DNA from: Desulfovibrio sp. JY
GTDB lineage: Bacteria; Desulfobacterota; Desulfovibrionia; Desulfovibrionales; Desulfovibrionaceae
Direction: 5' to 3'
NCBI GenBank assembly: GCA_021730285.1
Contig: CP082962.1
Location: forward strand, 1,054,001-1,118,000
DNA length: 64,000 nt
Shown here: piece after piece, positions 2,648 through 34,605 of the stretch
Position numbering within the stretch: position 1 is the first letter of the stretch
Layout of the letters: each line of letters begins with the position of its first letter
Translations under genes and position numbers: made by a program
The notes under the pieces: generated by a model
Told to the model about the DNA's origin: nothing
Seen by the model: only the letters and a program-made list of their open reading frames with translations
The model's database searches: none

Positions 2648-3680
2648 CCTGCTTACACACAATCATCAGCTAATTGTCAGCGGTCATTGTTTTGTGTATT
2701 TTCTGGGGGTTGGAGGCGCTGGATATGGCAAGAAACATTGTGCAATTCCAGAAGGGTATGAGCGAAGATGCGTTTGAGGCGCAATTCGGCACCGAGGAGA
2801 AATGCTGGGCACACCTCGTGCAATGGCGTTGGCCCGAAGGATTCGTTTGTCCAATTTGCGGCAGGGATAAGTACTCGCTGCTTATTGTTGGCAGGCGACG
2901 GCTCTTTCAGTGCTCACATTGCCGTACGCAGACTTCGGTGACCGCTGGCACAATCTTCGCTTCCACCAAAGTTCCCCTCAAGAAGTGGTTCCGCGCCATT
3001 TATCACCTCACTCAAAGCAAGGGCGGCATCTCCAGTGTCGAATTAGCCCGCAGACTTGGTGTCACGCAAACGACGGCCTGGAAAATGTCTCACAAGCTGA
3101 TGCAGGTCATGCTCGAACGTGAACACCAGCAACGTCTCACCGGCCGCGTAGAGATGGACGATGCTTACCTTGGCGGTAAACGACGTGGTGGGAAACGTGG
3201 ACGTGGTGCCCCAGGAAAAATTCCGTTTATTGCGGCAGTTGAAACGACAAAAAGTGGACAACCACACAAGATGAAGCTGTGCCGAGTCAAAGGTTTTCGG
3301 CGTAATGAGGTGCAGCGGGCATCTCAGAAAATCTTGCGTTCCGGGACATTGGTGGTGACGGACCGGTTGCCATGTTTTTCCGAGGTCCAGGCTGCGGGCT
3401 GTCGGCACGAACCCGTTCAAGACAGTGGCCGCAAGGCTGTGCAGGACTCAGTATTTAAGTGGGTCAACACCATGCTTGGCAATGTGAAGTCAGCATTATT
3501 GGGAACATATCGTGCCGTGAGAGGCAAACATGTGTCGCGCTATCTGGCCTCGTTCGGATATCGATTCAATCGCCGTTATGACTTGGCGACAATGCTCACG
3601 CGGTTGGCCTGGGTCTCCTTGCGGACGCCGCCCATGCCTTACAGACTGCTCAAACTGGCTGAGGATTGTGCGTAACCAGG
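2648..3680 (+). mobile_element. IS1595-like insertion sequence with terminal repeats and 8-bp duplication
   Basis: The element is 1,033 bp. Its ends are 28-bp imperfect inverted repeats (23 of 28 match): left 2648-2675 starting CCTGCTTACACACAATC, right 3653-3680 whose reverse complement starts CCTGGTTACGCACAATC. The flanks carry an identical 8-bp direct repeat, AACTTTTT, at 2640-2647 and 3681-3688; 8 bp is the usual target duplication of the IS1595 family. The single transposase gene runs into the right repeat. Removing the element and one copy of the duplication restores a host hairpin of the type seen at 14341 and 26815. Confidence 0.9.
2725..3675 (+). CDS. IS1595-family (ISXO2-like) transposase
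   Basis: The 316-residue protein has the two domains expected of this family. An N-terminal zinc ribbon (CPICGRDKYS and CSHCRTQTS, about residues 45-75) is followed by the conserved TVTAGTIF-like segment, here SVTAGTIFASTKVPL. A DDE-type catalytic core shows EMDDAYLGGKRRGG, LVVTDRLPCF and a third region around KWVNTMLGNVKS, consistent with the DD-N/E arrangement of the family. The ATG at 2725 has GGAGG upstream. Base composition is visibly less GC-rich than the neighbours, a sign of transfer. The stop codon lies inside the right inverted repeat, and the frame is intact, so the copy may be active. Confidence 0.92.
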   Translation: MARNIVQFQKGMSEDAFEAQFGTEEKCWAHLVQWRWPEGFVCPICGRDKYSLLIVGRRRLFQCSHCRTQTSVTAGTIFASTKVPLKKWFRAIYHLTQSKGGISSVELARRLGVTQTTAWKMSHKLMQVMLEREHQQRLTGRVEMDDAYLGGKRRGGKRGRGAPGKIPFIAAVETTKSGQPHKMKLCRVKGFRRNEVQRASQKILRSGTLVVTDRLPCFSEVQAAGCRHEPVQDSGRKAVQDSVFKWVNTMLGNVKSALLGTYRAVRGKHVSRYLASFGYRFNRRYDLATMLTRLAWVSLRTPPMPYRLLKLAEDCA

Positions 3681-14321: not shown

Positions 14322-14340
14322 CGTTACGGAGAAGGGGGGA

Positions 14341-14574
14341 GCCTCCGGCGGCCGGGGGGAAACTTTTTGGAAAAAGTTTCCCCCCGGACCCCCTTCAAAA
14401 ACTTTCAACGGGCTTCGCGTGATGCATATGGAACCTCTCGGCAACCCCTTTTTCCGGCTGGAGCCGCTCGCGGCGGCATGTCGCCGCGAGCGGCTCCAGC
14501 CGGCGGAAGGGGGGTCCGGGGGGCCCATGGCCTCCCGGCGGGGTCCAGGGGCAGCGCCCCTGGCCGCCGGAGGC
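14341..14574. repeat. 234-bp composite repeat with 13-bp terminal inverted repeats
   Basis: The element begins GCCTCCGGCGGCC (14341-14353) and ends with its exact complement GGCCGCCGGAGGC (14562-14574). Inside are three parts: a GGGGGGAAACTTTTT hairpin followed by GGACCCCCTTCAAAAACTTT, a very long perfect hairpin (22-bp arms 14454-14475 and 14482-14503, 6-base loop), and a GC-rich module GGTCCGGGGGGCCC... ending in AGGGGCAGCGCCCCT. A second copy with the same boundaries is at 26815-26992. It fills the gap between flxA and the ferritin-like gene, ending 22 bases before the next ATG. Confidence 0.8.
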
Positions 14575-20508: not shown

Positions 20509-21531
20509 ATGCGCAGCATTCCCGTCGAAACGGCCCAGGGCATGGTCCTTTGCCACGACATCACCCGCATCGTGCCGGGCGAGGGCAAGGGACCCGCTTT
20601 CCGCAAGGGACATATCATCGCCCCCGAGGACATCCCGGTCCTTTTGCGCCTGGGCAAGGAACACATCTACGTCTGGGATCTGGCCGAGGGGCTGGTCCAT
20701 GAGGACGACGCGGCCGGGCGCATCGCCCGGGCCATCGCCGGCGAAGGCATCACCTTCACCCAGCCCTGCGAGGGCCGCATCAACCTGCTGGCCGACCGGC
20801 GGGGGCTGCTCAAGATCAATGTCGACGCCCTGCGGCGCTGCAATTCCATCGACGAGGTGACCATCGCCACCATGCATGGCGACACCGTGGTTTCCGAGGG
20901 GCAGATGCTGGCCGGCACCCGGGTGGTGCCGCTGGTCGTGGCCGCCGAGAAGCTCGACGCGGTGGAGAAGGTCACGGCCGAGACCGGCCCGCTGGTCATG
21001 GTGCGCCCGTTTAAGCCGCTGCGCGTGGGCGTGGTCACCACCGGGGGCGAGGTCTACCACGGCCGCATCAAGGACAAGTTCGGACCGGTCCTGCGCCGCA
21101 AGTTCGACGACCTCGGCTGCTCGGTCATACGGCAGGTCATCGTGCCGGACGACAAGGACATGACCGTGCGCGCCATCCGCCAGCTTCTGGCCGACGGCGC
21201 GGAGATGATCGCGGTCACGGGCGGCATGTCGGTCGACCCCGACGACCTGTCCCCGTCGTCGATCCGGGCCGCCGGCGGCGAAGTCGTCACCTACGGCTCC
21301 CCCACCTTCCCCGGGGCAATGTTCATGCTGGCCTACCTCGGCGACGTGCCCGTGGTGGGGTTGCCCGGGTGCGTCATGTACCACAAGGCCAGCATATTCG
21401 ATTTGACGGTGCCGCGGCTGGTGGCCGGCGAAAAGCTGACCCGGGCCGACATCGTGGAACTCGGGCATGGGGGCCTGTGCGCCATGTGCCCGGAATGCCG
21501 CTACCCGCTTTGCGGGTTTGGCAAGAGCTGA
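20509..21531 (+). CDS. MoeA-like molybdopterin-binding protein
   Basis: The 340-residue protein has the MoCF-biosynthesis fold of MoeA/MogA: LRVGVVTTGGEVYHGRIKD (about residues 172-190), the VTGGMSVDPDDLSP motif (about 237-250) and VPVVGLPGCVMY. MoeA inserts molybdate into molybdopterin. Unlike MoeA, it has a shorter N-terminal part and ends in a Cys-rich tail, CAMCPECRYPLCGFGKS, which might bind a metal. It is the first gene after the sigma54-like promoter and sits next to the molybdenum enzyme gene, so a dedicated role in loading that enzyme is likely. GGGAGAGA precedes the ATG. Confidence 0.85.
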   Translation: MRSIPVETAQGMVLCHDITRIVPGEGKGPAFRKGHIIAPEDIPVLLRLGKEHIYVWDLAEGLVHEDDAAGRIARAIAGEGITFTQPCEGRINLLADRRGLLKINVDALRRCNSIDEVTIATMHGDTVVSEGQMLAGTRVVPLVVAAEKLDAVEKVTAETGPLVMVRPFKPLRVGVVTTGGEVYHGRIKDKFGPVLRRKFDDLGCSVIRQVIVPDDKDMTVRAIRQLLADGAEMIAVTGGMSVDPDDLSPSSIRAAGGEVVTYGSPTFPGAMFMLAYLGDVPVVGLPGCVMYHKASIFDLTVPRLVAGEKLTRADIVELGHGGLCAMCPECRYPLCGFGKS

Positions 21532-21665: not shown

Positions 21666-24416
21666 ATGGAAATTGCAAAAAAACTGGAAAAAATCTGGGT
21701 CGTGAACGGCATTGAGCGCAAGCTCATTGTCGATCCCGACGCCTTCCTGTCCGAAGTGCTGCGCGAGCAGATGCATCTGGTCGGCACCAAGGTCGGTTGC
21801 GGCAAGGGCCAGTGCGGCGCCTGCTCCGTCATCCTCGACGGCAAGGTCGTGCGCGCCTGCATCACCAAGGTCCGCCGCATCGACAACTTCGCCAACATCA
21901 CCACCATCGAAGGTCTGGGCACGCCCCAGAACCTGCATCCGCTGCAGGTGGCCTGGGTGGTCAACGGCGCCGCCCAGTGCGGCTTCTGCACCCCGGGCTT
22001 CATCATGTCCGCCAAGGGCCTGCTGGACGAAAATCCCAAGCCCACCCGCGAGCAGGTCCGCGACTGGTTCCAGAAGCACAAGAACGTGTGCCGTTGCACC
22101 GGCTTTATTCCCCTGGTCGACTCGGTCATGGACGCCGCCAAGGTGCTGCGCGGTGAGATGACCCTCGACATCAACCACAACTTCCCGGCCGACGGCAATA
22201 TCTTCAACTCCCGTGCGCCGCGTCCCTCCGGCGTGGCCAAGGTCACCGGCCAGTGGGCTTTCGGCGACGACCAGAAGCTCCAGCTGCCCGCCGACACCCT
22301 GCACCTGGCCATCGTCGAGGCGCGGGTCTCCCACGCCAACATCAAGGGCATCGACGTCTCCGAGGCCCTGAAGGTGGAAGGCGTCCACAGCGTCATCACC
22401 GCCAAGGACGTCAAGGGCAAGAACCGCATCACCGGCCTGATCACCTTCCCCACCAACAAGGGTGACGGCTGGGATCGTCCGATCCTGTGCGACGAGAAGG
22501 TGTTCCAGTACGGCGACGCCATCGCCCTGGTCGCCGCCACCTCCGAAAAGATCGCCCGCGCCGCCGCCGAGCTGGTCAAGGTCGACCTGGAAGTCCTGCC
22601 GGCCTACATGAACGCGCCCGCGGCCATGGCCGAAGACGCCATCGAGATCCACCCCGGCACCCCGAACACCTACTACAAGCAGGGCCTGGTCAAGGGCGAC
22701 GATCCCGCGCCGTTCTTCAGCAGCCCCGACTGCGTGGTGGCCGAAGGCAGCTACTACACCCAGCGCCAGCCCCACCTGCCCATCGAGCCTGACGTCGGCT
22801 ACGCCATGTACGACGAGGACGGCATCCTGCGCATCTACTCCAAGTCCATCGGCCTGTACCTGCACCTGTACATGATCGCCCCGGGCCTCGGCGTCGAACC
22901 GGACAAGATCGCGCTGATCCAGCTGCCCACAGGCGGCACCTTCGGCTACAAGTTCAGCCCGACCATGGAAGCCCTCGTCGGCGCGGCCACCATGGCCACC
23001 GGCCGTCCCTGCCACCTGCACTACAACTACGCCCAGCAGCAGTACTACACCGGCAAGCGCTCCCCGTTCTGGACCACCGGCAAGGTGGCCGCGGACAAGA
23101 AGACCGGCAAGATCAAGGGCACCCAGCACGAGTGGATCTGCGACCACGGCCCCTACTCCGAATTCGGCGACCTGCTGACCCTGCGCGGCGCCCAGTACTT
23201 CATGGCCGGCTACGGCATCCCGAACATGCGCGCCGTGGGCTACTGCGTGTGCACCAACCATGGTTGGGGTTCGGCCTTCCGCGGCTACGGTTCGCCGGAG
23301 ATCATGTTCCCCTCCGAAGTGCTGATGGACGAGCTGGCCCTCAAGGGCGGCTGGGATCCGCTGGAACTGCGCTACGCCAACTGCTACCGTCCGGGCGACA
23401 CCACCCCGACCGGACAGGTGCCTGATTCCTTCATGTATCCGGAGATGATCGACATCCTCCGGCCCAAGTACAAGGAAGCCCTGGCCAACGCCAAGCGCCA
23501 CTCCACCGACACCCTGAAGAAGGGCGTGGGCGTGGCCTTCGGCATTTACGGTTCCGGCCTTGACGGCGCCGACTCCGCCGGCTCCGATGTCGAGCTCAAC
23601 GCCGACGGCACCATCACCATCTTCAACACTTGGCAGGACCACGGCCAGGGTTCCGACCTGTCCACCCTGTGCGTCGCCCACGAGGCCTTAAAGCCCCTGG
23701 GCATCCCGGCCTCCAAGCTGAAGATCTTCCTGAACGACACCAGCAAGTGCCCGAACTCCGGCCCGGCCGGCGGTTCCCGCTCCAACGTCCTGGTCGGCAA
23801 CGCCATCATCAACGGCTGCCAGCAGCTGCTTGACGGCATGCGCAAGCCCGACGGCACGTTCCGCACCTACGACGAAATGGTCAAGGAAGGCATCAAGACC
23901 AAGTACAACGGCACCTGGACCCAGCCGGCCACGGACTGCGATCCGGATACCGGCCAGGGCAACCCGTTTGCCTGCTACATGTACGGCCTGTTCATGGCCG
24001 AAGTGACCGTGGACACCACCACCGGCAAGACCCAGGTCGACAAGATGACCCTCGTCGAGGACGTGGGAACCCTGACCAACCGGCAGACCGTCGACGGCCA
24101 GAACTGGGGCGGTCTCGCCCAGGGCATCGGCCTGGCCCTCACCGAGGACTTCGAGGACATCAAGAAGCACTCCTCCCTGGCCGGCGCCGGCGTCCCCTAC
24201 ATCAAGGACGTCCCCGACGTCATGGAGCTGATCTACGTCGACTCGCCGCGTGAACACGGCCCGTTCGGCGCGTCCGGCGTGGGCGAAGTGCCGCTGTGCG
24301 GTCCGCACCCGGCCATCATCAACGCCATCGCCAATGCCACGGGCGGCGCGTTTGTCCGTCACCTCCCGGCCTACCCCGAGAAGGTGCTCGCCGCCATCAA
24401 GGAGCTTGGCAAGTAA
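21666..24416 (+). CDS. mop: Molybdenum aldehyde oxidoreductase (xanthine oxidase family)
   Basis: The 916-residue enzyme oxidises aldehydes to acids and closely matches Desulfovibrio gigas Mop (907 residues). Both [2Fe-2S] sites are complete: C45, C50, C53, C65 and C105, C108, C142, C144, each 5 positions later than in D. gigas. The active-site Glu lies in GASGVGEVPLCGP (E874). The large Mo domain has GGTFGYKF, FRGYGSPE and GGSRSN. There is no FAD domain, as in Mop. The cofactor in this family is molybdopterin cytosine dinucleotide. Codon use is strongly biased like adh, suggesting high expression. ATG 21666 follows a GGAGA site. Confidence 0.95.
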   Translation: MEIAKKLEKIWVVNGIERKLIVDPDAFLSEVLREQMHLVGTKVGCGKGQCGACSVILDGKVVRACITKVRRIDNFANITTIEGLGTPQNLHPLQVAWVVNGAAQCGFCTPGFIMSAKGLLDENPKPTREQVRDWFQKHKNVCRCTGFIPLVDSVMDAAKVLRGEMTLDINHNFPADGNIFNSRAPRPSGVAKVTGQWAFGDDQKLQLPADTLHLAIVEARVSHANIKGIDVSEALKVEGVHSVITAKDVKGKNRITGLITFPTNKGDGWDRPILCDEKVFQYGDAIALVAATSEKIARAAAELVKVDLEVLPAYMNAPAAMAEDAIEIHPGTPNTYYKQGLVKGDDPAPFFSSPDCVVAEGSYYTQRQPHLPIEPDVGYAMYDEDGILRIYSKSIGLYLHLYMIAPGLGVEPDKIALIQLPTGGTFGYKFSPTMEALVGAATMATGRPCHLHYNYAQQQYYTGKRSPFWTTGKVAADKKTGKIKGTQHEWICDHGPYSEFGDLLTLRGAQYFMAGYGIPNMRAVGYCVCTNHGWGSAFRGYGSPEIMFPSEVLMDELALKGGWDPLELRYANCYRPGDTTPTGQVPDSFMYPEMIDILRPKYKEALANAKRHSTDTLKKGVGVAFGIYGSGLDGADSAGSDVELNADGTITIFNTWQDHGQGSDLSTLCVAHEALKPLGIPASKLKIFLNDTSKCPNSGPAGGSRSNVLVGNAIINGCQQLLDGMRKPDGTFRTYDEMVKEGIKTKYNGTWTQPATDCDPDTGQGNPFACYMYGLFMAEVTVDTTTGKTQVDKMTLVEDVGTLTNRQTVDGQNWGGLAQGIGLALTEDFEDIKKHSSLAGAGVPYIKDVPDVMELIYVDSPREHGPFGASGVGEVPLCGPHPAIINAIANATGGAFVRHLPAYPEKVLAAIKELGK

Positions 24417-24503: not shown

Positions 24504-26804
24504 ATGAATCAGCAGGAGCTGCGGGACATCGAACACCGGTGCATCGAGGAGGAACAGCCTCGCTGCCAGGCAGCCTGTCCCATCCATGTGGATGTGCGGG
24601 CATTCATGGCCAAGATGGCGTCCGGAGACCTCTCCGGCGCGCGCAAGGTCCTCGACCGCACCATGCCCCTGCCGGGCGTGCTGGCCAGGATCTGCGACCA
24701 TCCTTGCGAAGAGGTCTGCCTGCGCGAGAGCATCGGCGGCCCCCTGGCCATGGGCCATCTGGAACGGACCTGCGCCCTTGGGACCCCCACCGGCGGCAAA
24801 CCCATGTGCATGCCGGCCAAGGGCAAATCCGTGGCCGGACTCGGCGGGGACTTAAGCGCCCTGACCCTGGCCTGGGACCTGGCCAAGAAAGGCTACGCTG
24901 TCACGCTGTTAGTCCCCGGGGATGCGCCCGGAGGCGCTCTGCGCGACCTGCCCTCCGACATCCTGCCGCCCGAAGTCCTGACCGAGAGCCTGGACATCCT
25001 CGGCCGCATGGGCGTGACCGTAAAGACCGGACAGACCCTTTCCGACGATCTCCTCACCGAGGTCCGACAACATTTCGACGCCGTCTACGTGGAGTGCGCC
25101 GGGGACAATCCGCTTGGCCGCAGCCGCGCGGACGTCGATCCCGTGACCCTGGCCTACGGCCCCGAAGGCGTCTTCTGCGGCGGCTGGCCCGCCCCGGACG
25201 GCAACCGCTCCGTCATCACCCTGGTGGCCGACGGCCGCCGGGCCGGCGCTTCCGTGGACCGCTTCATTTCCGGCGCGACGCTGACCACAAGCCGGGAAAA
25301 GGAAGGCGTGGTCGCCACGCGCAGCTTCACCAGCCTCAAAGGCATTGCGACCGCGGCGCGCAGCGACCCCGACGACCCCGTCGCCGGCTACGCGCCAGAG
25401 GCCGCCAAAGCCGAGGCCGCCCGCTGCCTCCACTGCGACTGCATGGAATGCGTCAAGGTCTGCGAATACCTGAAGCACTACAAGGGCTATCCCAAACTCT
25501 ACACCCGGCAGATCTACAACAACCTTTCCATCGTCCTCGGCAACCACTACCTGAACCGCATGATCGACTCGTGCACGCTGTGCGGGCTGTGCACCGAGAT
25601 ATGCCCCGAGGACTTCTCCATGGCCGAACTGTGCCTGGACTCGCGCCGGGATATGGTCAAGCGCGGCAAGATGCCGCCCTCGGCCCACGAGTTCGCCCTG
25701 GAGGATATGGCCTTTTCCAACGGCCCGGACTGCGCGCTTGTCCGCAAGGAGCCCGGCCGGGACGCCTGCGCCCACCTCTTTTTCCCGGGCTGCCAGCTGG
25801 CCGGCGAACCCGATGGCCGCATTCCCCAGGCCTACGCCTTTCTGCGGGAAAAGCTCGACGGCGGCGTGGGCCTGGCCCTTGGCTGCTGCGGCGCGCCCGC
25901 GCTCTGGGCCGGACGCCAGCCCCTCTTCGAAGAGGTCGTGGCCGCGTTCAAGGCCCAGTGGGAGGCCCTCGGCAAGCCGCGCCTCATCACGGCCTGCTCC
26001 TCCTGCCTGTCCGTCTTCCGGCAGGCCGCCCCGGAGATTCCGGCCGTCTCGCTGTGGGAGGTCATGGAGGCCGAGACCGGGCTGCCCGAAACGACCGGCT
26101 TTTCCCCGGCCGCGCCGGTGGCCGTCCACGATTCCTGCACCTCGCGCCATAACGAGCCGCTCCAGACCGCCGTTCGCGCGATTCTGGCCAAACGCGGCGT
26201 CGCCTTCGAGGAACTGCCGCTCTCCGGCCGCTACACCGAATGCTGCGGCTACGGCGGACTGGCCGGCAACGCCCATCCGGAGCTGGCCAAGGCCATCACC
26301 GAACGCCGCGCCGCCGCCTCGGACAAGGACTTCCTCGCCACCTGCGCCATGTGCCGCGACCGGCTCTCCCACGTGGGCAAGCGGGCCTACCACCTGCTCG
26401 ACATCCTCTTCCCCGGCGACGCGACGGATGATCCGGCCACGCGGCCCGATCCCGGCTTCTCCATGCGCCACGAGACCCGAGCCCGTCTGCGCCGCCAGCT
26501 TCTGGCCGCGGTCTGGAACGAACAGGTCGACGCCAAGGCCCCTGCGGGACCGGATTTCGTGGTCAGCCCGGAAGTGCGCGCCCGCATGGAAGCGCGCCAC
26601 ATCCTCGACGACGACGTGAAACGCACCCTGGCCCATGCCGAAACCACCGGCCGCAAGTTCCTCGACCGGGAAACCGGCCATTTTCTGGCCAGCTTCACGC
26701 CGCACCGCGTCACCTACTGGGTGGAATACGTGATGGAAGGCGATGTCGCCCGGGTCTTCACCACATACAGCCACCGCATGTCCGTGAACAATGTCGGGAA
26801 GTAG
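24504..26804 (+). CDS. Pyridine nucleotide-disulfide oxidoreductase-like / dicluster / CCG-domain fusion protein
   Basis: The 766-residue protein combines three blocks. Residues 1-110 resemble the GltD-type Fe-S N-terminus (CQAACPIHVDV, CDHPCEEVC). Residues about 110-290 are a Rossmann region with a modified glycine motif (GLGGDLSALTLAWDL), so flavin or NAD binding may be altered. Residues about 305-640 hold two ferredoxin groups (CLHCDCMECVKVC, CTLCGLCTEICPED) and CCG-type Cys blocks (FFPGCQLAGE, GCCGAPALW, ACSSCLSVF, ECCGYGG, CAMCRDRL) as in HdrB/HdrD. It may be the electron acceptor partner of Mop. NCBI-style annotation uses a similar composite name for the family, as far as recalled. Confidence 0.85.
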   Translation: MNQQELRDIEHRCIEEEQPRCQAACPIHVDVRAFMAKMASGDLSGARKVLDRTMPLPGVLARICDHPCEEVCLRESIGGPLAMGHLERTCALGTPTGGKPMCMPAKGKSVAGLGGDLSALTLAWDLAKKGYAVTLLVPGDAPGGALRDLPSDILPPEVLTESLDILGRMGVTVKTGQTLSDDLLTEVRQHFDAVYVECAGDNPLGRSRADVDPVTLAYGPEGVFCGGWPAPDGNRSVITLVADGRRAGASVDRFISGATLTTSREKEGVVATRSFTSLKGIATAARSDPDDPVAGYAPEAAKAEAARCLHCDCMECVKVCEYLKHYKGYPKLYTRQIYNNLSIVLGNHYLNRMIDSCTLCGLCTEICPEDFSMAELCLDSRRDMVKRGKMPPSAHEFALEDMAFSNGPDCALVRKEPGRDACAHLFFPGCQLAGEPDGRIPQAYAFLREKLDGGVGLALGCCGAPALWAGRQPLFEEVVAAFKAQWEALGKPRLITACSSCLSVFRQAAPEIPAVSLWEVMEAETGLPETTGFSPAAPVAVHDSCTSRHNEPLQTAVRAILAKRGVAFEELPLSGRYTECCGYGGLAGNAHPELAKAITERRAAASDKDFLATCAMCRDRLSHVGKRAYHLLDILFPGDATDDPATRPDPGFSMRHETRARLRRQLLAAVWNEQVDAKAPAGPDFVVSPEVRARMEARHILDDDVKRTLAHAETTGRKFLDRETGHFLASFTPHRVTYWVEYVMEGDVARVFTTYSHRMSVNNVGK

Positions 26805-26814
26805 AAGCGGGGAC

Positions 26815-26992
26815 GCCTCCGGCGGCCAGGGGGAAACTTTTTGAAAAAAGTTTCCCCCTGGACCCCCTTCAAAAACTTTAAAGAGAATTTGTAGCTCCAA
26901 CCTATTTAACACCGTATGGGGGGTCCGGGGGGCCCTCGGCCCCCCGGTGGGGTGGTCCAGGAGGGGCAAAGCCCCTCCTGGCCGCCGGAGGC
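26815..26992. repeat. 178-bp composite repeat with 13-bp terminal inverted repeats
   Basis: Same architecture as 14341-14574: GCCTCCGGCGGCC at 26815-26827 and its complement at 26980-26992; a GGGGGAAACTTTTTgAAAAAAGTTTCCCCC-type hairpin (arms quoted in part) followed by GGACCCCCTTCAAAAACTTT; an unrelated 45-bp spacer; and a GGTCCGGGGGGCCC module ending in a GAGGGGCAAAGCCCCTC hairpin. It lacks the long central hairpin of the other copy. It lies inside the operon, 12 bases before the next ATG. Confidence 0.8.
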
Positions 26993-27004
26993 GCCACACA
27001 CGCC

Positions 27005-27220
27005 ATGGCAGAATCGCTTGTTTACTTGCCGCAGTCCGGCGACTGGACGTGCGCCGGATGCGGCGGTCCCTTGGAGCCCAAGGAGACCGACGTCACCTAT
27101 CTTGAAGGCGGCTTCAACATCACGCTTTTGACCTGTCCCAAGTGCAACATGGCCTTGCTCCCGGAGTATGTGGCCATGGGCAAGATGCTGGAAGTGGAGC
27201 AGTTGCTGGAGGACAAGTAG
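27005..27220 (+). CDS. Small zinc-ribbon redox-type protein
   Basis: This 71-residue protein has two CxxC pairs, WTCAGCGGPLE (about residues 17-27) and LTCPKCNMALLP (about 44-55), which would hold a zinc or iron atom, followed by a short helix. It corresponds to the small redox protein that accompanies the aldehyde oxidoreductase cluster in D. vulgaris (recalled as the DVU_1557 family). Its stop codon TAG overlaps the GTG start of the next gene. A role as adapter or metal carrier in enzyme maturation is inference. Confidence 0.8.
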   Translation: MAESLVYLPQSGDWTCAGCGGPLEPKETDVTYLEGGFNITLLTCPKCNMALLPEYVAMGKMLEVEQLLEDK

Positions 27221-27918
27221 TGCCGGGCTGCGTTGCGCCCTATGAGCGAGAAGATTTCCGGGAAGTCGTCGGCGAGGCCTTGCGCCCCGGCGGGCTGGCC
27301 CTGACCGGACGGGCGCTTGCGGCCTGCCGGTTTGCTCCGGGGGCCAGGGTGCTGGACCTTGGCTGCGGCCCCGGCGCGAGTCTGGCCTTTCTCACCGAGG
27401 CGAAACTGACCGCTTTCGGCCTCGATGCCTCCTCTTTCTTCACGCGCCAGGCCGGCCGCATCGTTCCCGTGGTGCAGGGACTGGGACAAGCCCTGCCTTT
27501 CCGGGAGGAAAGCCTGGACGGCGTGCTGTGCGAATGTGTGCTTTCGGCCTCGGGCGACGGGCCGGGGTGTCTGGCCGAGATCGCCCGGGTGCTGCGGCCG
27601 GGCGGACTGCTCCTCGCCACCGACCTGTACCTGCGCCAGGGCGCGCCCCTTGGCGAGGCCGGCGCGGGCTGCGCCGCCGGGGCGGTTACGCGCGAAGCCC
27701 TGGCCGTCATGTTCGGCGCGGCCGGATTCGCCCTGCGCCTGTTCGAGGACCACACCAAATTGCTTACGGAGCTGGCCTGCCGCCTGACCTTCGCCCTGGG
27801 TTCGGCGGCAAGCGTCGTGTCCCTGCTGACCGGCCGCGATCCGGCCTGCGCCGGCCAGGGGACGCCGCGCCCGAAACTCGGCTACTGCCTGTGCATCGCC
27901 GCCAAGGAGTCCTTATGA
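27220..27918 (+). CDS. SAM-dependent methyltransferase of the aldehyde oxidoreductase cluster
   Basis: The 232-residue protein has a class I methyltransferase core: motif I VLDLGCGPGASLAFL (about residues 44-58), GLDAS after strand 2, QALPFREESLDGVLCECVLS and VLRPGGLLLATDLYLR. The C-terminus has several Cys (GAGCAAGA, DPACAGQ, GYCLC). Start is GTG at 27220, overlapping the previous stop, with GGAGG before it. It lies beside a radical SAM gene; in this cluster family a methyltransferase and radical SAM protein are conserved together (recalled as the TrsM/TrsS or DVU_1556 family). The substrate is unknown; a molybdopterin or metal-ligand modification is a guess. Confidence 0.85.
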   Translation: MPGCVAPYEREDFREVVGEALRPGGLALTGRALAACRFAPGARVLDLGCGPGASLAFLTEAKLTAFGLDASSFFTRQAGRIVPVVQGLGQALPFREESLDGVLCECVLSASGDGPGCLAEIARVLRPGGLLLATDLYLRQGAPLGEAGAGCAAGAVTREALAVMFGAAGFALRLFEDHTKLLTELACRLTFALGSAASVVSLLTGRDPACAGQGTPRPKLGYCLCIAAKESL

Positions 27919-28355
27919 ACCCCGCGCTTATGGAGATCATGCCCCTTGCCGCCAAGAATTACTGTTGCAGCCAGATTCTCGTGCTTCTGGCCCTGCGCGC
28001 CCAGGGGGTGGAAAACTGGCCCCTGGTGCGGGCCGCCGCCGGCATCTGCCACGGCATGGAAGCGGGGCTGACCTGCGGCATCCTGACGGGAGGCTGCCTG
28101 GTTCTCGGCCTCTACGCCGGCCGGGGACGCGAGGAAGAGCTGGCCCATGAGAAGTCGGACCTCCTCATCACCGAATTCGTGGACTGGTTTCGCGAGAAGG
28201 CCACCGACATGTACGGCGACATCACCTGCCAGGCCATCCTGAGCGAGGGCAAGCCCGACGCCAGCCGTTGCGGCGGGCTCATGTCCGAGGCCTGGGACCA
28301 GATCCTCACCATCCTGTCAGAAGCCGGCATCGACCCGTCCGAGCCCAGGGAGTGA
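27915..28355 (+). CDS. C-GCAxxG-C-C-like Cys-rich protein
   Basis: The 146-residue helical protein has conserved Cys residues in NYCCSQIL (about 16-23), GICHGME (about 43-49), LTCGILTGGCLVLG (about 53-66), ITCQA and SRCGG. This resembles the C_GCAxxG_C_C family, whose members are linked to redox and metal sites, although the exact GCA motif is altered. It starts by ATGA overlap with the methyltransferase and ends by overlap with the radical SAM gene region, so the three are probably translated together. The corresponding D. vulgaris family is recalled as DVU_1555. Function unknown. Confidence 0.82.
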   Translation: MNPALMEIMPLAAKNYCCSQILVLLALRAQGVENWPLVRAAAGICHGMEAGLTCGILTGGCLVLGLYAGRGREEELAHEKSDLLITEFVDWFREKATDMYGDITCQAILSEGKPDASRCGGLMSEAWDQILTILSEAGIDPSEPRE

Positions 28356-28357
28356 TC

Positions 28358-29719
28358 GTGTCCGAATCTTCCGGCGCCTATCCCACCATGAGCCTGTGCC
28401 CGATCTGTCTGCGTCGGGTGCCCGCCCGTCGCGAGGTCGACGGCGCGGACGGTTACGTGGTCAAGACCTGCCCCGAGCACGGCGAATTCCGCACCCGGTT
28501 CTGGCACGGGCCGCCGGCCATGGTCGGCTGGAACCGGCCCAAGGTCCCGGGCAATCCGCCGCCGATACTCACCGAATCGCGCCTGGGCTGCCCCCATGAC
28601 TGCGGTCTGTGCCCGGAGCACGCCCAGCACACCTGCACCGCGCTTTTCGAGATCACCGGCCGCTGCAACCTGGCCTGTCCGGTCTGCTTCGCCACGGCCG
28701 GGCAGACGCCCCCGCCCAATCCCGGGCTTGACGTCCTGGCCGAACGCTTCGCCCGCATCTTCGAGGCCACCGGGCCGGTCAATGTCCAGCTCTCCGGCGG
28801 CGAACCCACAGTGCGCGATGATCTGCCGGAGGTGGTTGCCGCCTGCCGCAAGGCCGGATTTTCCTTTGTGCAGCTCAACACCAACGGCCTGGCCCTGGCC
28901 GCCGACCCGGGATTGGCCGGACGTCTGGCCGATGCCGGCCTCGTCTCGGTCTTTCTCCAGTTCGACGGCGACGACGACGCCTGCCGGGTGCTGCGCGGGA
29001 GGTCGCTTTACCAAACCAAGCTCGCGGCCATCGACGCCTGCGTGGAAGCGAACATCGGCGTGGTTCTGGTCCCGACCGTGGCCCCGGGCATAAACGACGG
29101 CCAGCTCGGCGACATCGTGCGTCTGGCCCGGTCCAAGGCCCCGGGCGTGCGCGGCGTCCATTTCCAGCCCGTAAGCTCCTTTGGCCGTTATCCCTGGGCC
29201 GCCGGCCCCACCGAACGCGTCACCCTGCCGGACCTGATGCGCGGCCTGGAAGAACAAACGGACGGCATGATCCGGGCCGAGCACTTCCACCCGCCGGGCT
29301 GCGAACATTCGCTGTGCTCCTTTTCCCAGCCCTACTTCCTCGAGGGAGATGCCGGGCTACGGCCGGCCCCGACGTCGGGCCAAACCTGCTGCTCCCCGTC
29401 GCCCCCCATCGCCGCCGACGAAGGGGCACGCCGCTCCAGAAACTTCGTGGCCCGCCAATGGGCCGCGCCGACAGACGCCCCGAAGCAAAGCGGCCCCCTG
29501 GACGATTTCGACCGCTTTCTGGCCGACGCCGCCACGGCCCGGCGCTTCACCGTCTCGGCCATGGCCTTTCAGGACGCCTGGACTCTCGACCTCGAACGCA
29601 CGCGCGGCTGCTGCATCCACGTGGCCACGGCCGACAACCGGCTCATTCCCTTTTGCCTCTACAACCTGACGGCGGCCGACGGCCGCACGCTCTACCGGGG
29701 GCACGACGGATGCGTCTAA
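28358..29719 (+). CDS. Radical SAM protein of the aldehyde oxidoreductase cluster (TrsS-like)
   Basis: The 453-residue protein has a radical SAM core with CNLACPVCF (Cys-X3-Cys-X2-Cys, about residues 102-110) and VQLSGGEPTVRDD. Before it is a Cys cluster LCPICLRRVPA ... KTCPEHGEF ... GCPHDCGLCPEH, like the N-terminus of radical SAM enzymes related to MJ0619 (pterin methylation) and the tetraether-forming Tes. After the core is a Cys-rich stretch GQTCCSPS and CCIHVA near the end. GTG 28358 has GGGAG five bases upstream; GTG 28352, overlapping the previous stop, is possible. The family is recalled as radical SAM (seleno)protein TrsS; here the frame has no in-frame TGA. Confidence 0.87.
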   Translation: MSESSGAYPTMSLCPICLRRVPARREVDGADGYVVKTCPEHGEFRTRFWHGPPAMVGWNRPKVPGNPPPILTESRLGCPHDCGLCPEHAQHTCTALFEITGRCNLACPVCFATAGQTPPPNPGLDVLAERFARIFEATGPVNVQLSGGEPTVRDDLPEVVAACRKAGFSFVQLNTNGLALAADPGLAGRLADAGLVSVFLQFDGDDDACRVLRGRSLYQTKLAAIDACVEANIGVVLVPTVAPGINDGQLGDIVRLARSKAPGVRGVHFQPVSSFGRYPWAAGPTERVTLPDLMRGLEEQTDGMIRAEHFHPPGCEHSLCSFSQPYFLEGDAGLRPAPTSGQTCCSPSPPIAADEGARRSRNFVARQWAAPTDAPKQSGPLDDFDRFLADAATARRFTVSAMAFQDAWTLDLERTRGCCIHVATADNRLIPFCLYNLTAADGRTLYRGHDGCV

Positions 29720-30771
29720 GTCCCGTCGACGCTCTCGTTGCCGCCGGGCTGGGCCGGCCGGACGTTCCCCCGACGCCCCAGGCCTTGCTGGCCTGGCGGC
29801 TGGCCGCCCTTTCCCGGGCCGTGCGCCATGCCGCCGCCGCCCCCTTCTACCGGGAACGCCTGGGCAACCTGCCGCCGGGTTTCCCCCATTTCATCGAGGA
29901 ATTCGAAACCCTGCCTTTCACCCTGGCTTCCGACCTGACCGAGGCCCATGCCCGGTTTCTGGCCGTTTCCCAGGACGACGTGGCCCGCATGGTCACGCTT
30001 TCCACCTCCGGCACCACCGGCGCACCCAAGCGCGTGGCCTTCACGTCGGAGGATATAGAAGACATCCGCCACTTCTTCCACATCGGCATAAGGACCCTGG
30101 TCGAGCCCGGGGACACCGTGCTCATCCTCATGCCCGGGCTGCGCCCGGACAGCATCGGCGACCTGCTCTGCCAGATTCTGCCGCGCCTGGGGGCGAAGGG
30201 GGTCCTTGGCGATCCCACGGGCGATCCGGCCGTCCTGGCCGCCGACCTGCGCCGGCTGCGCCCGCAAACCCTCGTGGCCGCGCCGTCCCAGATCCGCCGG
30301 GCCATCGACGACCCGGAGGTCTGCGCCGCGGCCCGGGACTGCCTGCGCACCATCCTGCTCTCGGCCGAGGCCCTGCCGGACGGCTGGAAGACGCTTTTGG
30401 CCGGGCGCTTCGGGGCCACGGTCTTCGACCACTACGGCGCAACCGAGATGGGCTACGGCGGCGGCGTCGAATGCGAGGCGTTTCACGGCTACCACCTGCG
30501 GGAAACCGAAATCTATTTCGAAGTGGTCCACATGCTCACCGGCGATCCCCTGCCCGATGGGGAGGTGGGCGAGGTGGTCTTCACCACGCTGACACGGCGC
30601 GGCATGCCCTTTGTGCGCTATCGCACCGGCGACGCCGCCGCCATGCTTCCCGGCCCCTGCCCCTGCGGCAGCAAACTGCGACGCCTGGGGCCCATCCTCG
30701 GGCGCATCGTCCACGGGCCAGACGGCCCGCAACTGACCCATCCGGCCAAGGGAGCGGCCAACCGCCCATGA
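29710..30771 (+). CDS. PaaK-like adenylate-forming enzyme
   Basis: The 353-residue protein belongs to the AMP-dependent synthetase/CoA ligase superfamily. It has the ATP loop LSTSGTTGAPKRV (about residues 97-109), the FDHYGATEMGYGGG adenylate motif and the later YRTGDAAAM (A8-like Asp). It is shorter than phenylacetate-CoA ligase (about 430), lacking much of the mobile C-terminal domain; that part ends in a Cys pair GPCPCGS. It starts inside the end of the radical SAM gene and its stop overlaps xdhC (ATGA). It could activate a carboxylate as adenylate or thioester. Its place in Mo-enzyme maturation is unknown; the recalled family is DVU_1553. Confidence 0.85.
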   Translation: MRLSPVDALVAAGLGRPDVPPTPQALLAWRLAALSRAVRHAAAAPFYRERLGNLPPGFPHFIEEFETLPFTLASDLTEAHARFLAVSQDDVARMVTLSTSGTTGAPKRVAFTSEDIEDIRHFFHIGIRTLVEPGDTVLILMPGLRPDSIGDLLCQILPRLGAKGVLGDPTGDPAVLAADLRRLRPQTLVAAPSQIRRAIDDPEVCAAARDCLRTILLSAEALPDGWKTLLAGRFGATVFDHYGATEMGYGGGVECEAFHGYHLRETEIYFEVVHMLTGDPLPDGEVGEVVFTTLTRRGMPFVRYRTGDAAAMLPGPCPCGSKLRRLGPILGRIVHGPDGPQLTHPAKGAANRP

Positions 30772-31808
30772 TCGAACTTATCGACATCATCAATACCACT
30801 CTGGCCGAAGGCCGCCCTGTGGTCGCGGCCACCATCGTCACAAGCGTTGGCTCCACCCCGCGCACCGCCGGCTCCAAGATGCTCATCTTTCCCGACGACA
30901 AGATCGCCGGCACCGTGGGCGGCGGGCTGGCCGAGGGCCAGGTCATGGCCGCCGGGGCCGAGGTGCTGGCCTCGGGCGTCTCCCGGCTCATGGATTTCGA
31001 CATGACCGGCCAGGCCTCCAAGGGCGCGGACCTGATCTGCGGCGGCCGGATGCGCGTGTTCCTCGAACGCCTGGACCCGGACGCGGCCACGAAACGCCTT
31101 TTCGCCGCCCTGGCCGAGACGTTGGCCAAGAGCGAACCCTGCCTCGTGGTCACGCCCCTGGAACCCGCCCCCGGGGACGATGCGGGCCGCTGCCTGCTGC
31201 TCCCGCAGGGCGACATCGTGGGCAGCGATCCCGGCCCGATGGTTTTGCAGGCCGCCCGGGAAAGGGCTCGCGCCATCCTGGCCCCGGTGGTCATGGAAAC
31301 AGGCGGCCGGCGTTTCTTCCTGGAACCGGCCCTGGCCCAAAGTCCGCTTGTCATCTGCGGCGGCGGGCACGTCAGCCGGCCCACCGGCCAGATCGCGGCC
31401 ATGGTGGGCTTTCGGGTGACGGTGCTCGACGACCGGCCGGAATTCGCCGCGCCGGAGCGCTTTCCCTTTGCCGCCGAGACCGCCGTCATCGACCCGGCCA
31501 AGGGCTGGCTGACAGGCCGGCGCATCGGCGAAAACGATTCCATCGTCATCGTCACGCGCGGCCACGCCCACGACTACGACGCGCTGGCCGAAGCGCTCCG
31601 CACCCCGGCCGGCTACATCGGCATGATCGGCTCGAGCTCCAAGCGCGACGCCATCTACGACCGGCTCCTTGCCGCCGGATTCACCCGCGACGACATCGCC
31701 CGGGTCAAAAGCCCCATCGGCCTCCCCATCGAGGCCGAAACCCCCGAGGAGATCGCGGTGAGCATCGTGGCCGAACTGATCGCCTGCCGCGCCGCCAGAA
31801 GACCATGA
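30768..31808 (+). CDS. XdhC-family aldehyde oxidoreductase maturation factor
   Basis: The 346-residue protein has the XdhC/CoxI N-terminal domain (TSVGSTPRTAGSKMLIF, then AGTVGGGLAEGQV) and a C-terminal Rossmann domain (VICGGGHVSRPTGQIA, about residues 190-205). XdhC proteins bind molybdenum cofactor, promote its sulfuration (the terminal sulfido ligand needed by xanthine oxidase-family enzymes) and deliver it to the apoenzyme. That matches the mop gene upstream. Its frame overlaps the CoA-ligase-like gene and the nucleotidyltransferase gene by four bases each, so all three are probably made together. Confidence 0.92.
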   Translation: MIELIDIINTTLAEGRPVVAATIVTSVGSTPRTAGSKMLIFPDDKIAGTVGGGLAEGQVMAAGAEVLASGVSRLMDFDMTGQASKGADLICGGRMRVFLERLDPDAATKRLFAALAETLAKSEPCLVVTPLEPAPGDDAGRCLLLPQGDIVGSDPGPMVLQAARERARAILAPVVMETGGRRFFLEPALAQSPLVICGGGHVSRPTGQIAAMVGFRVTVLDDRPEFAAPERFPFAAETAVIDPAKGWLTGRRIGENDSIVIVTRGHAHDYDALAEALRTPAGYIGMIGSSSKRDAIYDRLLAAGFTRDDIARVKSPIGLPIEAETPEEIAVSIVAELIACRAARRP

Positions 31809-33034
31809 CCACCGACACGACCTTTCCCGACACCTGCGCCTGCATCCTGGCCGGGGGGCTTTCCTCGCGCATGGGCGCGGGGTTCAAGCCCCTGCTTACG
31901 CTTGGCGACCGGACCGCGCTGGCCCTTTTGGCCGACACGTTCCGCCGGACGGGGATCACCGACATCATCGTGGCGACCGGGCACCGGGGAATCGAGGTAA
32001 CGGCCGAAGCGACACGCATCGGCATACGAAGCGTATACAATCCGGAGTACGAAACCGGCATGTTTTCCACCGTCAAGACGGCCCTTGCCGCCGTGCCGGA
32101 GCACTGCCGCCGCATCTGCCTGACGCCGGTCGATATCCCCCTGTTCCGGCCGGCCACGATTGCCCGGCTCGTGACGCGCCTTGGCGAGCCGGACGCCCCG
32201 CCGGTCGTCTATCCGGTCTTTTCCGGCGAGCGCGGCCATCCGCCCTGCCTGGACGCCCGCGTCATCCCCACGGTCATGGCCCACGTCGGCAACGGCGGCC
32301 TGCGCCAGGCCCTGGCCTCTTTCCCTTTCGAGGAAGTGCCGGTCGCCGACGCCAACATCCTGGCCGACATGGACACCCCCGAGGACTACGCCGTGCTGCG
32401 CTCCCTGGCCGATCGCCGGGACATCCCCACACCGGCCGAGGCCGAGGCGCTTTTGGCCATCGAAAAGGTCCCGCCCCAGGGACTGGCCCATGCCCGGGGC
32501 GTGGCCGCCGTGGCCGAGGCCCTCGGCCGGGCGCTCAATGCCGCCGGGTCCGACCTCGACATTCCCCTTATAAAGGCCTCGGCGCTCCTGCACGACGTGG
32601 CCAAGGGACAGCCACACCATGAAGCCGCCGGCGGCAGGCTGCTGGCCTCCCTCGGTTTCGACGCCGCCGCCGCCATCGTCGCCGCCCACCGCGACAGCGA
32701 CCTGCCGCCGGACGCGCCCATAACCGAACGCGAAGTCGTCTACATCGCCGACAAGTTCGTCTTCGGCCGCTGGCTGGTGCCGGTCGCCGGACGTTTTCAG
32801 CAAAAGCTCGACCTCTTTGCCGGCAATGCCGACGCCACCGCCGCCATTACCCGCCGCCGGGAAAACGCCTTGCGCGTGCTCGCCCGCATCGAAACCGCCG
32901 TGGGACAGCCCGCCGAAGCGATCATCGATGCGGCCGGCTTCCGTCCCGGCCCGCCCCCGGCCCAGGCCTATGCCGCCGCGGCCGCCCGCCGCGCGCCCGC
33001 GAGCGCTTCGGGTCCCACCTCCCCGAGGCATTGA
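31805..33034 (+). CDS. MobA-like nucleotidyltransferase fused to HD domain
   Basis: The 409-residue protein begins with a MobA/MocA-type domain: LAGGLSSRMGAGFKPLL (about residues 15-31) and the metal-binding LTPVDIPLF. Such enzymes attach CMP or GMP to molybdopterin; CMP fits because Mop-type enzymes use molybdopterin cytosine dinucleotide. Residues about 225-370 form an HD domain: HARGVAAVAEAL, LLHDVAKGQPHHEAAG and AHRDSD supply the His/Asp metal ligands of a phosphohydrolase. The two domains are joined by a short linker. The HD part might cleave a nucleotide or pterin phosphate; that is inference. It follows xdhC with ATGA overlap and is the last of the tightly overlapping genes. Confidence 0.9.
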   Translation: MTTDTTFPDTCACILAGGLSSRMGAGFKPLLTLGDRTALALLADTFRRTGITDIIVATGHRGIEVTAEATRIGIRSVYNPEYETGMFSTVKTALAAVPEHCRRICLTPVDIPLFRPATIARLVTRLGEPDAPPVVYPVFSGERGHPPCLDARVIPTVMAHVGNGGLRQALASFPFEEVPVADANILADMDTPEDYAVLRSLADRRDIPTPAEAEALLAIEKVPPQGLAHARGVAAVAEALGRALNAAGSDLDIPLIKASALLHDVAKGQPHHEAAGGRLLASLGFDAAAAIVAAHRDSDLPPDAPITEREVVYIADKFVFGRWLVPVAGRFQQKLDLFAGNADATAAITRRRENALRVLARIETAVGQPAEAIIDAAGFRPGPPPAQAYAAAAARRAPASASGPTSPRH

Positions 33035-33111: not shown

Positions 33112-34605
33112 ATGGACGCCGTAGGTTTCGACGTGCTGCGCCGGGCCGTGGCCAGTTGCGGGCTGGCTTCGGATACCGGACGCGGCCTGGACGTGCTGCT
33201 GTCGCGTTTTCTCGACGCGCTGACCGATCTGCCGGCGTTGCATCATGCCGCCGTGGTGCTGGCCGATGCCGAAAGCCGGCCGGCCATCCGGGCCAGACTC
33301 GGCGTGCCCGATGTGGGCATGGTGCTGGCCGCCGCCCTGGAGCGGGGACCGGGGGCCCGCACGGCCCGGGTTCTTCGGGCCGGAGCCACGCCGCTCGTGG
33401 CCGACGCCGACGGCAATGTCGCGGCGACGCGGGAGGAAGCGGCCATGCTGGCCGCGCCCATCCTGGCCGGCGCCTGGCGGGAGGAAGGCGCGCCCCAGGG
33501 CTGGTTTTTCGTCGACGGCCTGCTTGGCCGCGATGCCCCGCTGGCCGACGATCTGCGCCTGCTGACGCTTCTCGCCGACCTCCTCGGCCGCATGGCCGAC
33601 ATGGCCGCCACGGCCGCCGGCCGTACCCTGGACATGGCCCGGGAAGTGGCCTTTTTGCGCTCCAAGGTGTCCTTGCGCCACCAGCATGTGTTTTCAAGCG
33701 GCACGAGCCAGGCCCTGGAAGTGCTGCGCGGCGCGGTGACCCGGGCCGCCGTGTCCAAGGCCCCCATCGCCCTTCGCGGCGAACCCGGCTCGGGACGCGG
33801 GGTTCTGGGCCGCCTCATCCACGAACTTTCTCCCCGGGCCGTGCATCCCTTTGCCGTCTTCAACGCCGCCAGCGCCGACAAGCCCATGGAACGCCTGTTC
33901 GGCAGCGCCCGATCCCTTGGGCCCGCGGTCAAGCCCACTGTCGCCGGCCCCGGCCTGATCGAGGAAGCCGACGGCGGCACGCTGCTGATCCGGGAGGCCC
34001 ACCGCCTGCCGCCGGACGTGTGCGAACGGCTCGCCCGTTTTTGCACGGCCGGACGCATGGCCCGCCTGGGCGGGGCCCGGGAACGCCGCGTGGACACTCG
34101 CCTTTTTTTCGCCGTGCCCGTCGGCGGCCTGAACCAGGAACTGGCAGCCGCCCTGTCGCCGGAGGTCATCGTCGTGCCGAGCCTGCGGGAGCGCCGGGAA
34201 GACATCCCCGCCCTGCTCGATGACCTGATGGCCCGGGAAGTGGCCCGGGGCGGACGCCGCCTGACGCTGACGCCCAAGGCCCTCAAAGCCCTGGAAGGCT
34301 ACGACTGGCCCGGCAACATCCGGGAGATGGAAGGGCTCGTGGCCCGTCTGGCCGTGACCGCGCCCGAAGACCGCATCGACATCGCCGACATCCCGCCCGA
34401 AATGCTGGCCGAGGGCGACCGGCCGCCGGTGCTGCCCGAGGACGCGGCCGAACTGCGCGACATGGAGCGCCAGCAGGTCTTAAACGCCCTGACGCGCCAC
34501 GGCTGGGTGCAGTCCCGGGCCGCCCGCGAACTCGGCCTCACCCTGCGCCAGATCGGCTACCGTATCCGCAAATACGGCCTCACCAAAGAAGAGGCGGATG
34601 TATAA
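33112..34605 (+). CDS. Degenerate sigma54-activator-like protein (NifA-type HTH)
   Basis: The 497-residue protein has a GAF-like N-terminus (1-190), an AAA+-derived middle (about 205-420) and a FIS-type helix-turn-helix QSRAARELGLTLRQIGYRIR as in NifA-like activators. Key AAA+ residues are missing: Walker A reads GEPGSGRG (Lys replaced), the GAFTGA loop is absent (LFGSARSLGPAVK), Walker B reads GGTLLIREAHRLPP (Asp replaced by Arg), and the sensor AATN is AVPV. Structural parts such as PSLRERREDIPALL and YDWPGNIREME remain. It probably binds DNA but cannot hydrolyse ATP or open sigma54 promoters, so it may repress or modulate the operon it ends. Confidence 0.85.
   Translation: MDAVGFDVLRRAVASCGLASDTGRGLDVLLSRFLDALTDLPALHHAAVVLADAESRPAIRARLGVPDVGMVLAAALERGPGARTARVLRAGATPLVADADGNVAATREEAAMLAAPILAGAWREEGAPQGWFFVDGLLGRDAPLADDLRLLTLLADLLGRMADMAATAAGRTLDMAREVAFLRSKVSLRHQHVFSSGTSQALEVLRGAVTRAAVSKAPIALRGEPGSGRGVLGRLIHELSPRAVHPFAVFNAASADKPMERLFGSARSLGPAVKPTVAGPGLIEEADGGTLLIREAHRLPPDVCERLARFCTAGRMARLGGARERRVDTRLFFAVPVGGLNQELAAALSPEVIVVPSLRERREDIPALLDDLMAREVARGGRRLTLTPKALKALEGYDWPGNIREMEGLVARLAVTAPEDRIDIADIPPEMLAEGDRPPVLPEDAAELRDMERQQVLNALTRHGWVQSRAARELGLTLRQIGYRIRKYGLTKEEADV

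Follow-up and report, generated by a model that had tools for sequence, protein, structure and literature searches.

A tetraether-synthase-like radical SAM module that accompanies the aldehyde oxidoreductase Mop in Desulfovibrio sp. JY

Background

The molybdopterin aldehyde oxidoreductase Mop of Desulfovibrio gigas provided the xanthine oxidase family with its first crystal structure and, in the parts of the structural literature drawn on here, is described at 1.28 Å with molybdopterin cytosine dinucleotide (MCD), with oxygen ligands only—a recognised exception in being active without a sulfido ligand—and with an activity governed by the redox state of its dithiolene. A second described system is the radical S-adenosylmethionine (SAM) enzyme tetraether lipid synthase (Tes), for which the portion of the Tes paper used here gives the ligands C9, C12, C33, H36, C73, C77 and C80 plus a histidine, a CX3CX2C motif and, on the C-terminal cluster, the labile ligand Met439; tetraether synthesis by this protein, MJ0619, is shown there, and its earlier pterin assignment is not corroborated. 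Here we analyzed a 64,000-nucleotide stretch of Desulfovibrio sp. JY (contig CP082962.1, positions 1,054,001 to 1,118,000 of the forward strand; hereafter the window), in which relatives of both enzymes share one operon. This is a standard Mop operon, made of ordinary cofactor genes (MoeA-like, XdhC, and the MocA-like NTP51) and a separate module comprising Dicl, ZnR57, MT56, CGA55, TrsS, and AMP53.

We tentatively propose, without giving it better than even standing, that the module runs a short radical SAM pathway whose product is needed by Mop in trans and is transient or easily lost on purification. This proposal is supported by seven solitary Mop loci, all in genomes that carry the module, and by fusions of the MocA-like transferase to TrsS in two loci.

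Results

The operon and its families

All genes of the operon lie on the forward strand. It begins with a MoeA-like protein of 340 residues (20509..21531) with the MoCF_biosynth domain only (PF00994, 1.6e-24; below the TIGR00177 cut-off at 60.7 bits against 85.35), followed by Mop, a single chain of 916 residues (21666..24416; NF045668, 1566.3 bits, cut-off 1100), over nearly the full length of which the D. gigas structures 1dgj and 1sij align. Dicl (24504..26804; NF045663, 1020 bits, cut-off 530; Pfam PF14691, PF13534, and PF02754) combines a GltD-like N-terminal part, a 4Fe-4S dicluster, CCG domains, and a small C-terminal domain. Seven tightly packed genes follow downstream of a spacer. ZnR57 (27005..27220; NF045645, 92.5 bits, cut-off 60) is a CxxC...CxxC zinc ribbon with a C-terminal LEDK, and MT56 (27220..27918; NF045667, 214.6 bits, cut-off 155) is a SAM methyltransferase that has a GTG start and overlaps the zinc ribbon gene by one base. 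CGA55 (27915..28355), a C-GCAxxG-C-C protein and putative iron binder, overlaps MT56 by 4 bases; it exceeds the gathering cut-off of PF09719 (C_GCAxxG_C_C; 82.4 bits against 27) and lies below the curated cut-off of TIGR01909 (32.5 bits against 47.4). After a 2-base gap comes TrsS (28358..29719; NF045646, 630.7 bits, cut-off 490), a radical SAM protein related to Tes, overlapped by 10 bases by AMP53 (29710..30771; NF045666, 395 bits, cut-off 300), a PaaK-like AMP ligase without the C-terminal domain. The XdhC-type maturation factor (30768..31808; NF045664, 388 bits, cut-off 350) overlaps AMP53 by 4 bases, as NTP51 (31805..33034; NF045665, 418 bits, cut-off 315), a MocA-like (MobA-like) NTP transferase with an HD domain, overlaps XdhC. 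The gene set given by an initial annotation was thus confirmed in its frames, overlaps, and near-zero gaps from 27005 on, with all nine proteins from Mop through NTP51 above curated NCBIfam cut-offs; Dicl, which lies within the stretch of that annotation, had gone unnamed.

Scores against models of better-known relatives were lower. TrsS falls below the Tes model NF045702 (313.7 bits against 450) and AMP53 below the PaaK model TIGR02155 (107.4 against 646), while NTP51 is below the MocA cytidylyltransferase model TIGR03310 (97.7 against 186.45) and, under that same cut-off, is the sole strong MocA-type match in the genome (100 bits, the next 33). MT56 is below the arsenite methyltransferase model NF008823 (53.1 against 263); arsenic chemistry, suggested by this weak match, was set aside, the solved structures that match at E <= 1e-6 being other methyltransferases.

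Apart from insertions and swaps at some points, the operon order is largely the same in named records from Thermodesulfobacteriota, Bacillota, Chloroflexota, Pseudomonadota, Acidobacteriota, Spirochaetota, and Synergistota, so the cluster is no accident of the Desulfovibrio sp. JY genome. It is also already catalogued, without chemistry, in the NCBIfam set NF045663, NF045645, NF045667, NF045669, NF045646, NF045666, NF045664, NF045665, and NF045668; most of the model names denote locus families only. Names such as "DVU_1556 family methyltransferase," "radical SAM (seleno)protein TrsS," and "XdhC family aldehyde oxidoreductase maturation factor" indicate that curators are aware of these families. 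A search of the open-licence literature found no paper on DVU1551 or DVU1553-DVU1557, and nothing relevant for Tes together with aldehyde oxidoreductase or for radical SAM together with XdhC and Desulfovibrio; DVU1552, DVU1558, and four model numbers led, in the excerpts retrieved, to a selenoprotein review and a D. vulgaris proteome paper, and DVU1559 to table rows.

TrsS accompanies Mop across genomes

We scored TrsS and Mop in 394 genomes of the phylum (best four and best two candidates per genome) and in 149 genomes of the window's family (ten TrsS candidates per genome), with rescoring of Mop in 13 genomes and of TrsS in 15; a family genome counts as having a Mop-like match when it scores 105 bits or more against residues 2-104 of the D. 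gigas protein. Genomes and loci bear our own numbers (G and L). At cut-off, TrsS was found in 46/394 genomes of the phylum and Mop in 38/394, with both in 36; one of the two remaining Mop genomes (G294) has its TrsS split over two contig ends. Within the family, 95/149 genomes have a Mop-like match and 91 of these 95 have TrsS (89 over cut-off, two just under or cut), the four without it (G419, G441, G506, and G517) being rated 84, 54, 93, and 86% complete, with assemblies of about 800 contigs for G506 and G517. The control consisted of the 16 phylum genomes in which a single-chain sister enzyme scores 740-832 bits and no Mop reaches cut-off; 13 of them lack TrsS, two (G271 and G318) have it, and one (G362) has it in two pieces. 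The earlier claim that the extra genes are tied to Mop is therefore borne out by 91/95 and 36/38 Mop genomes and by the sister-only genomes. The Fisher tests of the association are extreme, and they ignore shared ancestry. Frequent occurrence of the genes without Mop, which the initial annotation had counted against its own idea, was seen to a limited extent: TrsS stands without Mop in 1/92 TrsS genomes of the family (G394) and in 10/46 of the phylum, the latter including G092 (locus L089), where Mop lies in pieces across contigs. G394 carries two TrsS-like matches side by side (G394:C34:21840-24223) and no Mop-like match; the locus L205 also has two.

Co-occurrence of this kind could reflect a shared operon, and solitary Mop genes bear on the point. 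The window's own genome holds three Mop-type genes and one TrsS, the extra Mop-type genes lying at C1:2365117-2367831 (L126) and C1:2197201 (L001, with short flank). Across seven genomes, we examined seven solitary Mop loci whose flanks were long enough (L124, L125, L126, L218, L220, L222, and L225), drawn non-exhaustively from second copies. All seven genomes carry the module at another locus, a pattern more in line with a module that works for Mop in trans than with one tied to it by a common operon alone. The 20 kb of L126 contain a sigma-54-activator-like regulator and no module gene. Where Mop and TrsS share a locus, a MoeA-like relative is present in 19/41 named loci and 17/30 phylum loci.

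A form of the module without Mop

Enough flank for a table of gene content was available at 49/80 named loci and 37/49 phylum loci, with some genomes in both sets; Mop is present at 41/49 and 30/37 of these TrsS loci, respectively. The 15 Mop-less loci have XdhC, NTP51, and MoeA in 0/15 each and CGA55 in 3/15; 12 keep Dicl or its C-terminal piece, 12 keep AMP53, 11 ZnR57, and 9 MT56; the C-terminal domain of Dicl is a separate small gene in this form. Six of the 15 (L088, L114, L158, L191, L204, and L209) are in genomes with Mop elsewhere, for L209 at 1099.7 bits, just under cut-off, and nine are not. In a tree of TrsS, the Mop-less L092, L093, L095, L098, L103, L111, L177, L185, and L203, with two rows of L205, make up one side of a branch with support of 99, and with a distant Tes-like outgroup the Mop-less rows included (8/9) nest within Mop-linked forms. 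As far as this outgroup can tell, the Mop association thus looks older, one derived clade having lost it.

The core can therefore occur, and presumably work, without Mop. This makes "dedicated to this enzyme," as the initial annotation put it, too strong, since the Mop-less clade keeps TrsS and, for the most part, the dicluster, zinc-ribbon, methyltransferase, and ligase genes. The neighbours of several Mop-less loci include a TRAP transporter, SdhA/B-like proteins, a corrinoid protein with its activator, and an acetylene-hydratase-like enzyme, and L177 has a FAS1/MaoC-like dehydratase nearby. At L086, a DMSO-reductase-family enzyme with Fer4_22 and FAD/NAD electron-transfer subunits (L086:12985-15123) takes Mop's place upstream of ZnR57-CGA55-TrsS-AMP53. 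We did not conclude a general link of the Mop-less form to this enzyme family: such genes are near L086, L095/L097/L211, and L111 and were not found near L092, L177, L185, or L203, and all ten genomes tested carry at least two of them.

PaaK-type ligases activate acids, and the main rival explanation makes Mop one enzyme of a biosynthetic or catabolic carbon route. In it, TrsS, MT56, and AMP53 would assemble or activate a carbon skeleton, and Mop would oxidise an aldehyde formed along the way and pass the electrons to Dicl; the only task of XdhC and NTP51 would be to mature Mop, and another oxidoreductase would serve the Mop-less form. The activity of these ligases speaks for this route, as do a core that exists without Mop and with none of XdhC, NTP51, or MoeA beside it, and the transporter, corrinoid, SdhA/B-like, acetylene-hydratase-like, and dehydratase neighbours listed above. 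We rate it somewhat below our own proposal, as its strongest and a serious contender. Against it, all solitary Mop loci examined are in module genomes, TrsS is fused with a MocA-like transferase in two loci, and no single oxidoreductase family recurs across all Mop-less loci.

TrsS has the metal-ligand residues of tetraether synthase

A profile built from 20 aligned TrsS sequences aligns with Tes (7tol) in two segments that together span most of the enzyme (E 3.6e-130). Among 131 aligned rows, C14, C17, C38, H41, C78, C82, C85, and H88 are kept in 131/131, as are C103, C107, C110, and C320, the last a candidate ligand of the C-terminal cluster; M402 (129/131), C418 (128/131), and C433 (129/131) depart from this through gaps alone. 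Once the 20-residue tag of the 7tol chain is subtracted, M402 aligns with Met439 of Tes. TrsS thus has, as sequence rather than as bound metal, the rubredoxin site, the three 4Fe-4S sites, and the labile methionine. An extra cysteine, C93, is invariant (131/131) and is isoleucine in 7tol. TrsS may accordingly be expected to perform chemistry of the Tes kind—hydrogen abstraction from an unactivated carbon and an intermediate in which carbon is bound to a cluster sulfur—on what would be a different substrate. At L088, L135, L136, L176, and L208, the genes immediately preceding TrsS are a cysteine-desulfurase-like one and a small one of about 100 codons.

Pterin methylation was considered and rejected as the role of TrsS. 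It rests on a Pfam name that calls the zinc ribbon of TrsS after HMPTM, which we take to be a pterin methyltransferase. This name is no evidence, because the Tes paper, in the portion used, shows that MJ0619 makes tetraether.

Partner proteins, fusions, and neighbours

ZnR57 ends exactly in LEDK in 102/120 relatives across phyla, also where it forms the end of a longer Dicl protein. Dicl and ZnR57 are a single frame in L090, L164, and L197, and the C-terminal domain of Dicl alone is joined to ZnR57 in L086 and L186. Its striking end suggested a modified peptide substrate; we set this aside, an electron-transfer part being likelier because ZnR57 belongs to longer electron-transfer proteins in those three loci. 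The cysteine C106 of MT56 has a frequency of 1.00 in 107 aligned rows. For CGA55, the fold is predicted with high confidence, and among structural matches only the iron domain of split-Soret cytochrome c (1h21) stands out, accompanied by a weak match in sequence; Foldseek alone gave no match at E <= 0.001.

AMP53 matches PaaK (4r1l) over residues 21-329 of 436, ending at 329, and keeps what we take to be the PaaK-like adenylation motifs. We had considered truncation a family trait, which is wrong: the C-terminal part is present in 83/107 different relatives. It is absent in the window and in 24 different relatives, which belong to the window's family or to named Desulfovibrionaceae apart from two of family f12; the window's lineage has lost the part.

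NTP51 and TrsS—MocA-like transferase and radical SAM enzyme—are fused in L170 and L181, and MT56 is fused to AMP53 in L192. Other fusions join TrsS to DUF5714, also like the selenoprotein MbdU (L158:9974-12151), and NTP51 to a histidine phosphatase (L157:5624-7390).

Within the window, a 200-base repeat-like spacer between Dicl and ZnR57 (26805..27004, forward strand) is a dispersed repeat that contains strong hairpins (z -7.65 for 26810-27010) and holds no module gene; a near copy lies at 14332-14574 and fragments near 3679, 46629, and 60940. This GC-rich copy splits the operon, and pieces of it match locus L006 of the same genome. After the operon, at 33112-34605, stands a sigma-54-activator-like regulator, relatives of which follow NTP51 in several Bacillota loci; it appears to be without the GAFTGA loop, presumably the motif to expect there.

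The cluster in D. gigas disfavours a lasting modification

We took G407 to be D. gigas, its Mop being identical over the 103 residues tested. Its locus (L216) reads MoeA, Mop, Dicl, ZnR57, MT56, CGA55, TrsS, AMP53, and XdhC, with an NTP51 relative elsewhere in the genome. That D. gigas has the cluster and a Mop described with MCD at 1.28 Å disfavours a lasting cofactor modification. Lasting tailoring, in which the module would modify the Mop cofactor, a molybdenum ligand, or an enzyme residue, was the version put forward initially, and it would agree with the co-occurrence, the fusions, and the presence of XdhC even in an organism, D. gigas, whose isolated enzyme lacks a sulfido ligand in the account consulted. 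Set against that account, with its MCD and oxygen ligands, and against the Mop-less clade, it is not borne out and seems to us improbable.

Reactivation scores lower still in our judgment. Under it, Dicl, ZnR57, and CGA55 would keep or restore the reduced dithiolene, and TrsS, MT56, and AMP53 would make a small redox carrier, in keeping with a module rich in redox domains and with the dithiolene switch described for D. gigas Mop; yet 13/16 sister-enzyme-only genomes do without TrsS, and the Mop-less clade is left unexplained. As the description of D. gigas Mop reports no lasting change, we would instead expect the product of the proposed pathway to be transient, labile, or acting elsewhere in Mop function.

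Discussion

What the initial annotation had called an extra maturation pathway keeps its tie to Mop, to which the NTP51-TrsS fusions add, and loses both its exclusivity to Mop and its lasting modification. We infer the reactions, their substrate, and Mop's use of the product as follows. Dicl and ZnR57, with the iron protein CGA55, would feed electrons to TrsS, which would abstract a hydrogen from an unactivated carbon and, as in Tes, hold the resulting radical at a sulfur atom of the C-terminal 4Fe-4S cluster. TrsS could then couple the carbon held there to a second carbon or release a thiol; MT56 would methylate the product, AMP53 would adenylate or ligate it, and NTP51 may link the route to the cytidylylated cofactor. 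Acting in trans, the product would let Mop become or stay active.

Several observations weigh against this pathway in the service of Mop. The derived clade has the core with no Mop, XdhC, or MocA-like gene adjacent. The genomes G115, G070, G096, and G036, as well as, as far as their assemblies reach, G531, G533, G537, and G539, have no match to the Mop model, a model that also responds to other members of the xanthine oxidase family; in G537 even a PF00384 enzyme is lacking. Conversely, G209 has Mop, Dicl, ZnR57, MT56, CGA55, and AMP53 in an operon, with no TrsS detected at its place there or elsewhere in a genome rated 94% complete, while G271 and G318 have the sister enzyme only, yet TrsS at cut-off. 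The window's AMP53 has lost its C-terminal part; the fusions are between adjacent genes and could be incidental, and L170 and L181 fall within a single larger clade; and in D. gigas, which carries the cluster, Mop is nonetheless described, in the account used, with MCD and no sulfido ligand. In G209 (L241, G209:C51:13086-19167), CGA55 and AMP53 now overlap where TrsS is missing.

A bolder and decidedly doubtful version holds that a Tes-type enzyme, supplied by dedicated sulfur and electron proteins, makes a labile compound, organic or organosulfur, that acts as a ligand or activator of the Mop molybdenum centre, one clade having later re-used the core for another enzyme. Such a ligand would have been missed because it is lost when Mop is purified in air. 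If true, this would be, to our knowledge, the first C-C or C-S coupling in molybdenum enzyme maturation beyond cofactor synthesis.

Mop has been studied for decades and is nearly always accompanied by the same set of undescribed enzymes, including one that resembles the enzyme joining membrane lipids in archaea. If it depends on an undescribed radical SAM pathway, the picture of either its active form or its physiological role has been incomplete. With this module, the range of tetraether-synthase-like enzymes also reaches common anaerobic bacteria.

Comparison with known systems

Like the systems in which XdhC and MocA mature xanthine-oxidase-family enzymes, the window operon has XdhC and MocA-like genes; it differs in six further proteins without a place in the known route, and D. 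gigas Mop, as described in the source used, works without a sulfido ligand. With PaaK (4r1l), AMP53 has the N-terminal part in common, whereas the C-terminal part is missing in the window's protein. A 2026 review, in the portion available, tabulates TrsS among predicted selenoprotein families and gives the credit to Haft and Tolstoy 2025; the window TrsS frame has no in-frame stop, nor was there a stop inside the listed TrsS matches over cut-off in the phylum and family sets, Sec forms not having been sought further. The closest likeness is to Tes (GDGT-MAS, MJ0619; 7tol): both parts of its chain match TrsS and the ligand residues are common to the two, the labile methionine included, whereas TrsS is set apart by a score under the Tes cut-off, the extra Cys93, and other gene partners.

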